Source: Candidatus Absconditabacterales bacterium (GTDB lineage Bacteria > Patescibacteriota > Gracilibacteria > Absconditabacterales > Absconditicoccaceae). From it: a DNA stretch of 64,000 nt. The stretch covers positions 1 through 64,000 of the forward strand of contig CALDTY010000009.1 in the NCBI GenBank assembly GCA_937923605.1, given 5' to 3'. The notes beneath the pieces were generated by a model. It was not told where the DNA came from. It ran no database searches and saw nothing but the letters and a program-made list of their open reading frames with translations. The position numbers were made by a program, and so were the translations under genes. Positions 6,267 through 40,635 of the stretch are shown here, in pieces (within the stretch, counting starts at the first letter, position 1; each line of letters opens with the position of its first letter).

Positions 6267-7151
6267 ATGCAAAACTATATGCAAGAACATGGAACAAGTT
6301 ATTATGTAGCAAATTGGTTCTTACCTAAGAGTATTAGGGACGATGTTTTTGCACTTTATGCTTTTGTAAGAATCCCAGATGATATCGTAGATGATCCAAT
6401 GGCTGATCCAACCATAACAAGGAATCAACTACATAGATACGAAAAAATGTTTAATGATTTGTATGAAACATGAGTTAGTCAAGGAACATCATTTCAACAA
6501 CGAGAGGTGGTAATTCGTAGTACTGTTGAGGTCATTAAGCGTTATGATATTCCAGTACAATGGATCAAGGAATTTTTTACTGCAATGTATGCTGACTTAG
6601 ACAAAAAAGTCTATTATACATATGAAGAATTACAACAATATATGCATGGTTCTGCAGAAGTTATTTGATTAATGATGTGTAAAATAATTTGATATGATAA
6701 AACTCAAGAAAAAGAGGTATTTAGAACAGCGAAACTATTATGAGAAGCGATGCAATATACAAATTTCCTTAGAGATATAGTGGAAGATAGTTTAGATTTC
6801 GATCGTTTGTATATACCAGAAGATCGTCTTATGCAACATGATTTAAATCATACTCTTTTGATTCAGTATATAACCTGAAAGAAAGTAGATGATACATGGA
6901 TGAGATTTATGTCGCAACAAGTATTATTTACAAAAGAACTGTACCGTGAAGCAAATATGTGAATTGATCTGTTACATAAAAAATGAAGGTTTGCGGTGAG
7001 AGTCGCATCATGGATGTACGAATCTATTCTTGATAAGATGGTCAAACATAAGTATGATGTTTTTAGTAAAAGTGCTCGCACTTCAAAGGTTGAGAAATTG
7101 AGAACTTTATTTTATAAGTCTGGATTGCATGCAATTGGAAAACTTGATTAA
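6267..7151 (+). CDS. crtB: Phytoene synthase (squalene/phytoene synthase family)
   Basis: 294 residues, normal CrtB length. It condenses two geranylgeranyl diphosphates to phytoene. Both aspartate-rich Mg-diphosphate motifs are present: PDDIVDD at residues 37-43 and RDIVEDS at about 169-175, the latter within the family signature QYTNFLRDI; YIPEDRL also fits. TGA encodes many of the glycines (for example AEVIGLMM). The stop overlaps the start of the lycopene-elongase gene by 23 bases, implying translational coupling. First gene of the carotenoid cluster. Confidence 0.92.
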
Positions 7152-8031
7152 GATCTCTAGACCAAGATTCCGAATGTATCTGTTTGGACCGTTTTTGATA
7201 TGACGGGTTGCTTGAATTAATGATTTATATCAATGAGATATGTTGAGCTGATTAGTTCAGTATAAAACATTTATTTTAGCTGTATTATTACTAGTTGCAG
7301 CAGATTATTTTCTTTTTAGTGCAAATCTGTTTGTATATGGTATCAACGATCTTTCCGATGATGATACTGATCAATATAATTCAAAAAAATGATCCTACGA
7401 GCATTCATTGCAAAAAGAAGAAAGAACTCGATTGGCACGCCACATAATCATATTCGCATGAGCTGAATGAATGCTACTTATGCTGTTGTTGGTTTGGACA
7501 CAAAAAGTTATGTTTTGATATATAGATTGGCGACGATGAATACTAGCATTGGTATTATTTTGGGCAACATCATATTTATATAGTTCACTTCCAGTACGTG
7601 CAAAATCGTTACCATTTATTGACGGACTGTTTAATGTACTATATATTTTTCCAGCTATAGTGTGACGATTAGTTTCCTGACATAATATTGAATGATTTGC
7701 TTGGCTTGCATTTTGAGCTTGATGGCTACGAGCGATGGGAATGCACGCATATAGTGCAATTCCAGATATAGAGCCGGATCGTAAAGCATCACTGGTGACA
7801 ACTGCAGTATACCTTTGAAAAGAAAAAACGTTAGTGTATTGCTGATTATTACGATCATTGGCAGCTATTCTTGCTTATGATTTTTTATGAACTCCAATAA
7901 TTTTAGTTTTACTATTGTATATAACAGCTATTATACTGAGCTTTAGAACTAAGGTTATGAATATATACAAACGATTCCCATGGATAAATGGTTTTGTTGG
8001 TTTTCTTCTTTTTTGGCTAATTGTACTGTAA
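7129..8031 (+). CDS. lyeJ: UbiA-family prenyltransferase, probable lycopene elongase
   Basis: 300 residues, polytopic. The start ATG at 7129 lies inside crtB and gives MQLENLIKISRPRF-W, matching the SRPRFW start of lycopene elongases; the W is CGA. NDLSDDDTDQYNSKK from residue 73 is the prenyl-diphosphate motif NDxxDxxxD, and AIPDIEPDRKA is the second motif. Such enzymes add C5 units to lycopene to make C50 carotenoids such as bisanhydrobacterioruberin. Adjacent cruF supports this over menaquinone or haem O synthesis. The exact product is inferred. Confidence 0.85.
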
Positions 8032-8053
8032 TCTTTGACTTGCTTAAAGGTGT

Positions 8054-8707
8054 TTAGTATAATAATACTGCAAATAATCCCCAAAAATATCATAACATTA
8101 TTATCCCTCATATCGTATATGATAAAGGATAGTTTTTTTGGTTTGGTTTCACGATCGCAAATAAGAATAATATACTAATGAGTCCACTAAAGAGTCGTCA
8201 CATGAAATTACTTATGGGAACTCAGAATCGTCATAGTGTATATTTATAAGATCGAATTCATTGTGCGACATGTACAGGATCCAATGCGAGATCCAAAATT
8301 ATGAGAAGAAGTAAGCTCATAAAAATTCGATGTTTTCTAGATCTTGAAAAAATGCTTGCTACTCCTGTGATACTAAACACAATGATAGGCCATATAAAGA
8401 AAAGCAAGACTGGAATTGCTCACAAGTGTGGTCCTAATTTAGTATTGTATTCAAAACATCCATATGGGAAGCATGTTTTAGTCCCGATAAATTCTATACT
8501 TAATGCAAATACTCATATAAGGAAAAATGAAAATATTCACTTAGTTCATCGATATTCCCAAGACACCCACAAATAATAGATTCATAATAAACATAGAAAG
8601 GGAACTATTCAACTAAGGAGAGTTTCTGGTGTAAGAAATCATGCTCATCATCAGATGAAGCATCAAAGTAATAAAAATAATGCATATGTTGTGTAATTAT
8701 GTTTCAT
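8054..8707 (-). CDS. cruF: CruF-like carotenoid hydratase (carotenoid biosynthesis protein family)
   Basis: 217 residues with about six or seven membrane segments. Motifs match the CruF/bacterioruberin-hydratase family: EFIGTKTCFPYGCFEY, LGPHLGAIPVL, LALDPVHVAQG and GVPISNFMG-W-LFSG, with several tryptophans written CGA. CruF enzymes hydrate the ends of acyclic carotenoids (1',2'-hydratase; the C3',C4' region of C50 carotenoids in haloarchaea). The start at 8707 overlaps the end of crtI by 11 bases, so the two genes are one minus-strand operon converging on lyeJ. Confidence 0.85.
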
Positions 8708-10214
8708 CTTTAATTCTCATGCTAGCTAATTTTCCAGATATTATGCAAATGGGTACGCCTATTCCAGGGTTGGTATATCATCAAGCATAATATAGACCCT
8801 CTACTTTTTTTGATACATTATTGGGACGAAAGATGGCTGTTTGACGAAACGTATGAGCTCATCAACTTAGCGCATTTCAACCATATGCATGATATCTAGA
8901 AGTGAACTCATCTGGTCAAAATAATTCTTCATGAATGATATGTCATTCTATCTTTTCTCAAAGAATCTTTTCAGTGGTAGCAATTAATTTATCTTTATAA
9001 GATTTCTTTTGTTCTTCATTCATGTTAACACGAGACGGAAAGGGAACTAAGAAAAATAGATTCTCATGTCAACCGGGTGCAACGTTATTATCTGTCTTAG
9101 AAGGACAACAAATGTAATATGAAGGGTCAGTTGGAAATACTTTACTTTTAAAAACTTCTTTATTATTTTGATCCCAATCTTGATTAAAGATAAGAGTATG
9201 ATGATTGAGTCAAGTAACTTTTTTATCTAATCAGATATACATACAAAATCAACTTGGAGCAAGTGTATGATTCCCTCGATACTTCTCATTATAAGTTTGA
9301 TTTTCTGATTCTAATAATTGAGTTTCAGTCCAATGCATATCAGCGTTGCTGACAATATCATCAACTTCAATTGTTTCTCAAGAAATAAGCGTCAATGAAG
9401 ATATTTTCGATTTTCTTTTTCGTCGTTTCCAAGTTTTTGGCAGTGGAGTAGTTTGAATCCTTGTAACTTCGGAGTTAGTTTTGTATTGAACTCATAATTC
9501 AGTTCATAAACTTACCAGTGCGTTTACTAAAGACGACATTCCTCCTTGAGGGTATCGTACTCACATACCAAAATCTACGTAGGACATGAGATTATATAAT
9601 GCAGGAGTTTCATATGGTGGACTTCATAAAAAAATCATAGGATACTGGATGATTTTTTGCATTTTATCTGTCTTAAAATATTTTTTCACATACGTTCAAA
9701 TTGTTGAATATACATTCATTTTCATGCCATCAATCATCATTCTTTTATTAAAGAAATCAAAGATTGAATCGTAGTTCTTTTGAACAAATTCATCCATTCC
9801 AATGTGATATTGAACTTCCGACTTAGCAAGATATTCTTTAAGAGATTTCATAGAACCAGGTTCTATGTTCTCAAATAGTTCACGATTTTTTTCTAATGTA
9901 CTACTAACATCTATGTATGGAGTTTTAGTGTCATCTTTGAAATAAATTCTGTAGCTTGGATCTAACTTTGTTAGAGTAAGGTAATCTTCAATTTTTTTAT
10001 CAAAATCTGAAAAGAATTGTTCAAACAAATCAGGCATCAAATACCAACTAGGTCACATATCTCGTGTGAATCAATTAGCTTTTTTTGTACTTGCGCGGCC
10101 TCAGAGTTGTTCATTTTTCTCATATACAGTAACATTATATCATGCTTTTGCTAGATAACAAGCTGCGGATAGACCTCAAAATCAAGATCCTATAATTGCG
10201 ATATTTTTTTTCAT
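8697..10214 (-). CDS. crtI: Phytoene desaturase-type carotenoid oxidoreductase
   Basis: 505 residues, the usual CrtI length. The N-terminus has the FAD Rossmann motif IAIIGSGFGGLSAACYLA (GxGxxG at residues 9-14), followed by the E of VYEKN and GGRASTKK. The C-terminus has the family motif GLYYAGGYTNPGIGVP. CrtI desaturates phytoene to lycopene; a CrtD-like 3,4-desaturase role is possible since only one desaturase is seen. Operonic with cruF. Confidence 0.92.
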
Positions 10215-10382
10215 AAAAAATGTTGGATAAATAAATTCTTCAAAACGAACTTTATATGTCTATTTAATAATATGCTGTACTCATACTCCTTTTTAGAGAA
10301 TCTTGTTTCTATTTCTTAAGAAAAGTTAGATAAGAAGGTTGTAATGAGCTTCGTGATAAGTACAAGAGATACTATGTTTTTA

Positions 10383-10757
10383 ATGCATATTGTTAGATTT
10401 TTTTCCACGTTCTATACCTGTTGGTGAATCATTTTTCATATTTTATATTTTCTATGATATCTACCAAATACTCGGATTATAGCACTTTTCATCTTTGTTA
10501 TGAGCCAGGGTTTTACGTATGTGTATCCTCATTATTGGAATTTTTATGAATGAAAGAATAGAAAATGATTGCTATGAATAGATTTCTTATTACATTGGAT
10601 ACGGATATTTATATTACCAATAAATTTCTCATATGAAAGTATTATACTTTTGGTTATAAGTGTTATTTGGTATGTATCAATCAATGCAGAGAAGGTAATC
10701 ATATACTATTCAGATCCTGTCAAAGTCACTAGACAAATTTTTAAACGATGATCATAA
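10383..10757 (+). CDS. Small four-helix membrane protein in the carotenoid cluster
   Basis: 124 residues with about four hydrophobic segments (residues ~9-30, 34-52, 73-82 and 86-104) and a basic C-terminus. It ends with TAA directly abutting the ATG of the GGPP synthase gene, implying co-translation. Not CrtYcd-like: no PxE(E/D) cyclase motif. A role in carotenoid or prenyl-lipid handling is only suggested by position. No family recognised. Confidence 0.75.
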
Positions 10758-11771
10758 ATGAATTTATTAGAGTATAAGACATCATTTGATGTGTATTTAG
10801 AAAAACGATTGGAAATAAAACTTTCAGAAGTAGAATGATATTTTCCTGATAAAAAAACATTTGATTTACTCACCTATCTAAAACCATATGTAGATCATGG
10901 TAAAAGATTTCGCCCATATATGGTATACCTTTGATATTCACTTTATTGAGGTGATGATGTAGAATTTATACTCAAGGTAGGACTTGTTCATGAGTTAATC
11001 CATATTTTTGCGTTGATTCATGATGATATTTGCGATAAAGGTACGATAAGACATAGTATTAATAGCTATCACCAAGAGCTCTCTAATAGATATCAAGATG
11101 ACCACATCTGAATAACGCAAGCTATGTTGATTTGAGATTTAGTATATACGCGAGCCTTACAGGAGTCTGAGCAACTTATGTGTTGAACAAAGGCACATAA
11201 GATAGTGTTTGAAATGCTAAACGAAGTTGTAATCTGACAGATGCTAGATGTCGATTTTAGTGTGGATCAAGAATCAATAAAATCATTAGAACAAATTACA
11301 AATAAAGATCACTTAAAATCAGGTCAATATACATTTCAGAAACCTTTACTAGTGTGAGCAAGTCTAGCTTGAAATGAAGACTTAGATAGCCTTGCACTGA
11401 TATGAAAAAAATTATGAATTGCTTTCCAAATGAGAGACGATCTTTTGGACTGGATTCCAAACAAAGAATGAAAAACTAAAATGAGTGATATTCAAGAAGG
11501 GAATCAAACGGTAGTACTATTGAGTTGTCGTGAAATGTATGATACAACTGCTCGAGAAAGGCTACTAAAACTTAGATGAAGAAAATTATCTGAAAATAGT
11601 TTATCCATACTTAAAAATGATTTTGAGTCATTTTCAATTCAAGAAGTTGTGACTTCAAAAATTATATCTTTATTAAATGATGTTGAGGCTGACTTCAATA
11701 AACTTGGTTTAGAGTCATCAGCAATATGAGATTTTAAAGACATCATCGAATTATTGAGAAGTGTCAACTAG
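10758..11771 (+). CDS. crtE: Polyprenyl (probably geranylgeranyl) diphosphate synthase
   Basis: 337 residues, IspA/CrtE type. First aspartate-rich motif DDICD at residues 89-93 in LIHDDICDKGTIRH; second motif QMRDDLLD with DDLLD at 227-231; substrate-lysine motif GKRFRPYM near residue 52. These enzymes build all-trans C10-C20 diphosphates from IPP and DMAPP. Position beside crtB makes the GGPP precursor role likely, but chain length is not proven. Start abuts the previous stop. Confidence 0.88.
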
Positions 11772-12406: not shown

Positions 12407-13645
12407 TTATCGCCCTCTAATTTTCATTGCATCCAAAATTCTAGTTAACGCAACAATATAAGCTGCATCTCTTAGATTAGTATTATGTTTACTTGCAGTT
12501 TCAATGACTCAATCTGTGGCTGCATTCATAAGTTTCTCTAGTTTCTGAAATACCTCATCTTCTTCTCGATAATAATTCATATTATTTTGTACTTGTTCAA
12601 AGTAACTAACAGTTACTCATCCAGCATTCGCTAATATGTCTGGGAGGACGATGACTCCCTTGTTGTCAAGTAAATCTTGTCATTCTGGAGTTGTAGGCCC
12701 ATTTGCTAGTTCAAGTATTACTTTTGCCTTAATGTTTCATGCATTCTCTTTTGTGATTTGATTTTCCAATGCTGCAGGAACAAGTATATCACAATCGTTA
12801 TCTAAGATATCTAAATTTTCAAGTATGGTGGCTCAAGGATATTCTGTAACACTACTTCTTTTCGCTTTAAGTTCAGATATTATTCCGATATCTATTCATT
12901 CTGGGACATATATTCATCATCTCGAATCTGATATTCAAATGACAACTGCACCATCATCAATACATAATTGTGCAAATGTTAATCATGCATTTCAAGCTCA
13001 TTGAATAACAACTTTCTTTCATTGTAAAGTATCATTATTTTTGCCTAGATATCTTCTCAAGACATATAGTCATCATAGAGCTGTAGCTATTCATCTTCAT
13101 TTACTTCATCAAATACTTAGTGGTTTACCAGTAATCACTCATGGTTGCCATTCTCCAACATGTTTTGCATATTGATCTGCCATCCATGCCATGATTTGTC
13201 AATTAGTATTAACATCAGGAGCAGGCACATCTTTTGTAGGTCATATATGTTCTCGAATAGCATCAATATATGCTCTAGAAAGTTTTTCAATTTCATTATC
13301 CGAGAGTTGTTTCGGATCCACAATAATTCATCCCTTTCCTCAACCTAGTGGCAAATCTATGACAGCAGTTTTAAAACTCATCCATGCACTGAGAGATTTA
13401 ACTTCATCCAACGATACATGTTGATGATATCTTATTCATCATTTGTGGGGTCATTTAACATTTGAATGCTGAGATCTATATGCTTTGAATGTTTTTGAAG
13501 AGCCATTATCCATTACTACCTCTAGATCAGCTTCTACAATATTAATAGGTTCTAGGAGTTGTTCCATAAGCGAAACATCATAATCATCTTTTATATAAGC
13601 ATAAGCATCTTTGATTTGTTGTTGTACAGTTCAAAATAAAGACAT
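12407..13645 (-). CDS. gdhA: Glutamate dehydrogenase (Glu/Leu/Phe/Val dehydrogenase family)
   Basis: 412 residues, typical of the hexameric catabolic/archaeal class. The substrate loop reads LPLGGGKGGIIVDP. The NAD(P)-binding Rossmann region includes VVIQGAGNAGLTFAQ and SDSRGGIYVPEG. GGSKGRGIATALGG and PAALENQIT are also present. The codon at 12576-12578 in QNNMNYY-x-EEDEV is CGA where the family has tryptophan. It interconverts glutamate and 2-oxoglutarate plus ammonia. Single-gene unit with a promoter at 13666-13695. Confidence 0.94.
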
Positions 13646-39963: not shown

Positions 39964-40635
39964 ATGAATGATACGCTTAAACATATCGCAATAGTTCCAG
40001 ACGGGAACAGAACGTGGGCCAGAGAGAAAGGTCTCGTTCCAAACGAATGACATCAAGAATGATACCAAAGAACCAAAGAGTTATTGGAGTATGTTTTCAA
40101 TAAGTTAGAAACTTGAGTAGCAATTACATTTTGGGCTATGAGTACTGAGAATGTAAAAAAAAGATCTGTTTTAGAAAAAACGTTCTTATTTGCTCTTATT
40201 GAGAAATGAATTACAGAAATAGAACCAACATTGGAAAAGTACAATCTTTGATTTACTTGGTTAGGTAGTAAAGAATGAATACCAGAGTCCTTAGTAAAAA
40301 AGTTAGATAATTTGCAGCAGAAATTTGATAATGTATGAAAAAGAACATTAAACTTATTATTTAATTATGGATGAAAGCGACACATCCAGCATGCTTTAGA
40401 AAAATGCGTAGAGGAAGGGGCACATAAAATAGATGAATTTATGAAATTGTGAAATTTGCCACCAGTTGATCTAATTATTAGAACAAAATGAGCCTTAAGA
40501 ACTAGCTGATTTCTACCTTGGGAGGACTATGCCGAACGATATTTTACTGATTTAAAATATCCTGATTTTACCGTAGATCAATTGAAAATTGCTATTGAAG
40601 ATCGATATGGAAGAAAAAGAAACTTTGGTGCTTAA
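39964..40635 (+). CDS. uppS: Undecaprenyl (cis-prenyl) diphosphate synthase
   Basis: 223 residues. HIAIVPDGNRTWAREKGL is the catalytic aspartate region (D in PDGNR), with GHQEGYQRTKELLEY, TFWAMSTENVKK, NYGGK-W-HIQ, and DLIIRTKGALRTSGFLPWE followed by AE-W-YF. It extends farnesyl diphosphate with IPP to the C55 lipid carrier for peptidoglycan and glycan export. Its usual length is 240-250, so the C-terminus is slightly short. Confidence 0.93.

Follow-up and report, generated by a model that had tools for sequence, protein, structure and literature searches.

Bacteria of the CPR have reduced genomes and have shed most of their biosynthesis. Does a member of this group, a tiny and probably host-dependent bacterium, encode a pathway to bacterioruberin, the red C50 pigment known above all from halophilic archaea? 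The question arises from the window analysed here, a stretch of 64,000 nucleotides from a Candidatus Absconditabacterales bacterium, whose available genome is a draft assembly in 34 contigs, 83.5% complete.

With TGA translated as glycine and CGA/CGG as tryptophan, the open reading frames place five carotenoid genes between positions 6267 and 11771, each where an earlier, sequence-only reading had put it; under the standard code the cluster frames break up. That reading had claimed a GGPP synthase, CrtB, CrtI, a UbiA-family elongase and CruF within 5.5 kb, and all five were recovered both as ORFs and as Pfam matches (SQS_PSY, E-value = 8e-60; UbiA, 6e-14; Caroten_synth, 3e-22; Amino_oxidase, 5e-35; polyprenyl_synt, 2e-40; all under translation table 25). 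The two gene overlaps that it reported were also reproduced, 23 bases between crtB and lyeJ (7129-7151) and 11 bases between cruF and crtI (8697-8707). Its list of five genes thus stands, and lacks a sixth frame, orf137, which separates crtI from the GGPP synthase gene. The features, for which the aspartate-rich motifs of CrtB and GGPP synthase were read by eye, are as follows.

6267-7151, plus strand: crtB, phytoene synthase, 294 aa (DDIVD and DIVED motifs; SQS_PSY)
7129-8031, plus strand: lyeJ, predicted UbiA-family lycopene elongase/1,2-hydratase, 300 aa (NDLSDDDTD and DIEPDRKA; PRK12875, trees)
8054-8707, minus strand: cruF, C50 carotenoid 2'',3''-hydratase-like, 217 aa (Caroten_synth)
8697-10214, minus strand: crtI, phytoene desaturase, probably also carotenoid 3,4-desaturase, 505 aa (CrtID NF058655)
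10344-10757, plus strand: orf137, small predicted helical membrane protein, 137 aa (ORF only)
10758-11771, plus strand: GGPP synthase, 337 aa (DDICD and DDLLD motifs; polyprenyl_synt)
39994-40629, plus strand: undecaprenyl diphosphate synthase (UppS), outside the cluster (PF01255, 160.8 bits)

Here lyeJ and cruF occur together with a CrtI/CrtD-type desaturase gene, the combination by which a bacterioruberin gene cluster is recognised.

The cluster uses the published Absconditabacteria code, TGA for glycine and CGA/CGG for tryptophan (PMC8629427). In an alignment of the UbiA protein with 97 standard-code homologues, the columns of its CGA/CGG codons hold 315 tryptophans and 17 arginines, against 5 tryptophans and 379 arginines in the columns of its other arginine codons. 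Tryptophan occupies UbiA codon 15 in 94 of 94 standard-code homologues and codon 201 in 94 of 97; the same is seen at CruF codons 152 and 171 (30 of 30 homologues each) and at CrtI codon 313 (80 of 85). Translating CGA as tryptophan rather than arginine raises the model scores from 197 to 218 bits for UbiA, from 609.5 to 625.1 bits for CrtI, from 76 to 85 bits for CruF, and from 470 to 479 bits for the neighbouring glutamate dehydrogenase. The latter gene (window positions 12407-13645), of which the nearest models are archaeal, has a CGA codon just before its stop, in agreement with tryptophan. TGA accounts for 79 of the 120 glycine codons in the cluster and, elsewhere in the window, for 712 of 1076, a share of 0.66 in both, and the cluster is therefore fully adapted to the host code.

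The UbiA protein scores 218 bits against PRK12875, above the cut-off of 205 (with CGA as tryptophan), and is 42.7% identical to the Haloarcula japonica LyeJ over 262 aa. The aspartate residues of its motifs NDLSDDDTD and SAIPDIEPDR are invariant in our alignment A1. Phylogenetic trees place it inside the clade of the characterised H. japonica LyeJ and at a great distance from MenA, UbiA and CyoE of E. coli. Trees initially made with CGA as arginine were repeated with CGA as tryptophan, because shared misread tryptophan columns could falsely unite the recoded sequences; in the repeated UbiA tree, three of the 13 Absconditabacterales sequences (G151, G144, G177) still stand apart from the others. 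The family search found no second UbiA in the source genome. We thus predict that this protein is a LyeJ-type lycopene elongase/hydratase, transferring C5 units to lycopene and carrying out the 1,2-hydration. UbiA proteins from another Patescibacteria family (L167 and L169-L172, family f37) group with the Arthrobacter elongase, as a separate C50-type branch.

For CrtI the best model is CrtID (NF058655), with 625.1 bits, 15 bits below the cut-off of 640; the protein is accordingly described as CrtID-like. It is 45.7% identical to Haloarcula C0507 over 477 aa, and a phylogenetic analysis groups it with C0507 and D1086, split (support 100) from the desaturases of Pantoea, Paracoccus, Thermus and Staphylococcus. 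In vivo, C0507 and D1086 each carry out both the CrtI and the CrtD reactions (PMC11946383). This similarity suggests that the cluster CrtI is probably bifunctional, a phytoene desaturase and carotenoid 3,4-desaturase, a type that needs no separate crtD, so that the missing crtD leaves no gap in the pathway. One strong CrtI per genome was found in nine family genomes, the source genome included, and the Absconditabacterales CrtI sequences form one clade (support 87) in the tree made with CGA as tryptophan. CrtB scores 148 against the HpnD model versus 137 against CrtB models, all below cut-off; in a tree with CrtB from bacterioruberin-type clusters, the Absconditabacterales sequences again form one clade (support 98). 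The GGPP synthase gene adjoins crtI also in four other genomes (G198, G124, G078 and G197).

CruF is the weakest link of the pathway assignment and is best called CruF-like. Its domain is clear (PF04240, Caroten_synth: 92.5 bits, cut-off 25, E-value = 4.6e-26, with CGA as tryptophan). Among NCBIfam models, the bisanhydrobacterioruberin hydratase CruF_Halo (NF041333) fits it best, with 85.1 bits where the cut-off is 300; the protein's 79.0 bits against TIGR03460 lie below the cut-off of 154.7. The protein is shorter than the archaeal enzyme, and no solved structure near it was found.

Taken together, the five genes very probably encode a route to a C50 carotenoid of the bacterioruberin type, and we infer its steps as follows. 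GGPP synthase would supply C20 diphosphate, two molecules of which CrtB would join into phytoene. CrtI would convert phytoene to lycopene and probably introduce the 3,4 double bonds as well, like Haloarcula C0507. LyeJ would then add one C5 unit and water to each end, and CruF would hydrate the added C5 ends to yield bacterioruberin. Such a pigment might stiffen the membrane or protect it from light or oxidants. The C50 bacterioruberin-type cluster proposed by the sequence-only reading remains the best interpretation. Among the outcomes that the reading had named against it were the UbiA protein grouping with MenA or heme O synthases and the CruF-like protein falling outside the carotenoid hydratases; neither was found, as the former groups with Haloarcula LyeJ in the trees and the best matches of the latter are bisanhydrobacterioruberin hydratase models.

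The divergence of CruF raises the possibility that the pathway ends before bacterioruberin, with LyeJ and CrtI active and CruF either inactive or acting on one end, giving bisanhydro- or monoanhydrobacterioruberin. An identity of only 32% to Haloarcula CruF over 172 aa and scores below both CruF cut-offs point that way, as does a genome of the same genus as the source (G107) in which CruF was not found and two other frames take its place. CruF nonetheless keeps the residues that are invariant among its relatives, with W152 and W171 restored under the correct code, and cruF stays beside crtI in G198, G124 and G078; we regard this early end as unlikely. In G107, the gap between lyeJ and crtI (L031:10900-12644) holds a 344-aa frame and a frame that resembles, by eye, a REP-associated transposase.

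A different product is much less probable still: either a cyclic C50 carotenoid like decaprenoxanthin, orf137 then serving as a small subunit of a cyclase, or an acyclic hydroxylated C40 carotenoid. For the former one may cite that orf137, within the cluster, encodes a small membrane protein predicted to be helical (helical also in a structure model of low confidence). It matches no Pfam or NCBIfam model, those of cyclases included, so that its candidacy as a cyclase is unsupported; actinobacterial cyclases come in pairs; and G198 and G124 leave no space for it at the corresponding place. It is probably not a core part of the cluster. The structure model was too poor for a fold search. In favour of a C40 product stands G197 (L017), placed in the same genus, which has crtB, a diverged crtI, the GGPP synthase gene and a cruF on the strand opposite crtI, and in which no UbiA was found. 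The pigment of G197 may be a C40 carotenoid; in the source genome, the UbiA protein lies above the PRK12875 cut-off. That the contig is a contaminant or chimera from another organism might be suspected of a 34-contig draft, and is hardly credible: TGA use is the same in the cluster as in the rest of the contig, CGA/CGG codons occur in both, a recoded UppS gene lies on the same contig, and the same genes recur in further family members with a recoded genome, including one assembled as a single contig.

The bacterioruberin-type cluster has close counterparts within the family. A search of related genomes, which the sequence-only reading had asked for, shows its gene order recurring in other genera: crtB and lyeJ forward, cruF and crtI reverse and the GGPP synthase gene forward are arranged identically in G124 and G078, and in G198 cruF, crtI and the GGPP synthase gene lie on one contig and crtB with lyeJ on another. 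The single-contig genome G042 (98% complete) has the five genes in another order, with an IPP isomerase gene beside crtB. Among the 49 family genomes, 14 have a UbiA match and 8 a Caroten_synth match. In the phylum Patescibacteria as a whole, the UbiA model has matches in 24 of the 380 genomes; apart from the source genome, seven of these reach at least 170 bits. Outside the family, lyeJ-crtI-cruF clusters were found in Acidobacteriota, Flavobacteriaceae, haloarchaea, one Woesearchaeota genome and scattered Patescibacteria. On the Woesearchaeota (DPANN) contig (L033:6647-11556), crtI, crtB, the GGPP synthase gene, lyeJ and cruF stand in a row on one strand. The earlier description of lyeJ plus cruF as a haloarchaeal signature is too narrow, the pair being present also in Acidobacteriota, Bacteroidota and several other Patescibacteria. 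Its remark that the cluster is not a fresh acquisition is backed by the codon use and by the gene order common to the family. A recent transfer from archaea was rejected: the proteins group with those of other Absconditabacterales, which are not nested among haloarchaea. The sequence relationships fit an old cluster in Absconditabacterales that has been lost in places and exchanged to some extent. A search of viral contigs returned no relative of lyeJ or orf137. A rhodopsin was considered as the reason for the pigment and set aside, none being found in the source genome. G078, which also has the carotenoid cluster, encodes a recoded microbial rhodopsin (C23:3331-4035, L143; 147 bits).

From where would the isoprenoid units come? 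HMG-CoA reductase (PF00368) was found in none of the 49 family genomes. IspH (PF02401) was found in 12 of them, of which only G165 and G173 bear the elongase; the other 12 of the 14 elongase-bearing genomes gave no IspH match. Neither enzyme was found in the source genome, where precursor genes could be absent as missing sequence because it is 83.5% complete. The 98%-complete G042 likewise matched neither, and its type 1 IPP isomerase gene (L013:9877-10425) directly adjoins crtB. A survey of freshwater CPR bacteria reported the mevalonate pathway in many Gracilibacteria (PMC9166423), whereas it is not seen in our family counts. Since HMG-CoA reductase and IspH were not found, C5 units or mevalonate probably come from outside the cell. 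The UppS gene in the window indicates that prenyl diphosphates are put to use outside the carotenoid cluster too. We tentatively propose, as an idea with somewhat less than an even chance of being right, that Absconditabacterales build a C50 membrane pigment wholly from isoprenoid units of their host or prey, by an ancient pathway of the order that has survived both the change of code and the reduction of the genome. Should the precursors prove to be imported, pigment, host and membrane would be tied together, and the pathway would serve to probe what cells of this kind obtain from their hosts. Because red C50 carotenoids give a strong Raman signal, single uncultured cells could be checked directly.

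Actinobacterial C50 pathways (the Arthrobacter elongase; Corynebacterium CrtEb) similarly combine a UbiA elongase with CrtE, CrtB and CrtI, but in the trees the cluster UbiA belongs to a clade that excludes the Arthrobacter elongase, and no heterodimeric cyclase was recognised in our cluster. The clusters of Acidobacteriota and Flavobacteriaceae (L032, L035-L037, L040-L042, L046, L051) also hold crtI, lyeJ and cruF close together, often with crtB, and differ in their standard code and gene order. The H. japonica genes c0507-c0506-c0505 (crtI/crtD-lyeJ-cruF; PMC11946383) resemble the present ones in the adjacency of the three late enzymes and in a desaturase of the bifunctional type. Unlike them, the present cluster includes crtB and the GGPP synthase gene, has lyeJ on the strand opposite crtI and cruF, is written with TGA as glycine and CGA/CGG as tryptophan, and encodes a much diverged CruF.

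Predicted bacterioruberin genes in CPR bacteria are not first described here: lyeJ, crtD and cruF were reported in 2023 from Lake Baikal Patescibacteria, on different reads or apart (PMC9948471). For Absconditabacteria, a literature search of incomplete journal coverage found no earlier report. The new point is the precursor question, posed by elongase-bearing family genomes that are mostly without IspH and all without HMG-CoA reductase found. In contrast to the scattered genes of other groups in Lake Baikal, the cluster described here is compact, recoded and common to several genera: a pigment pathway kept in a reduced CPR bacterium and wholly rewritten in the local code.
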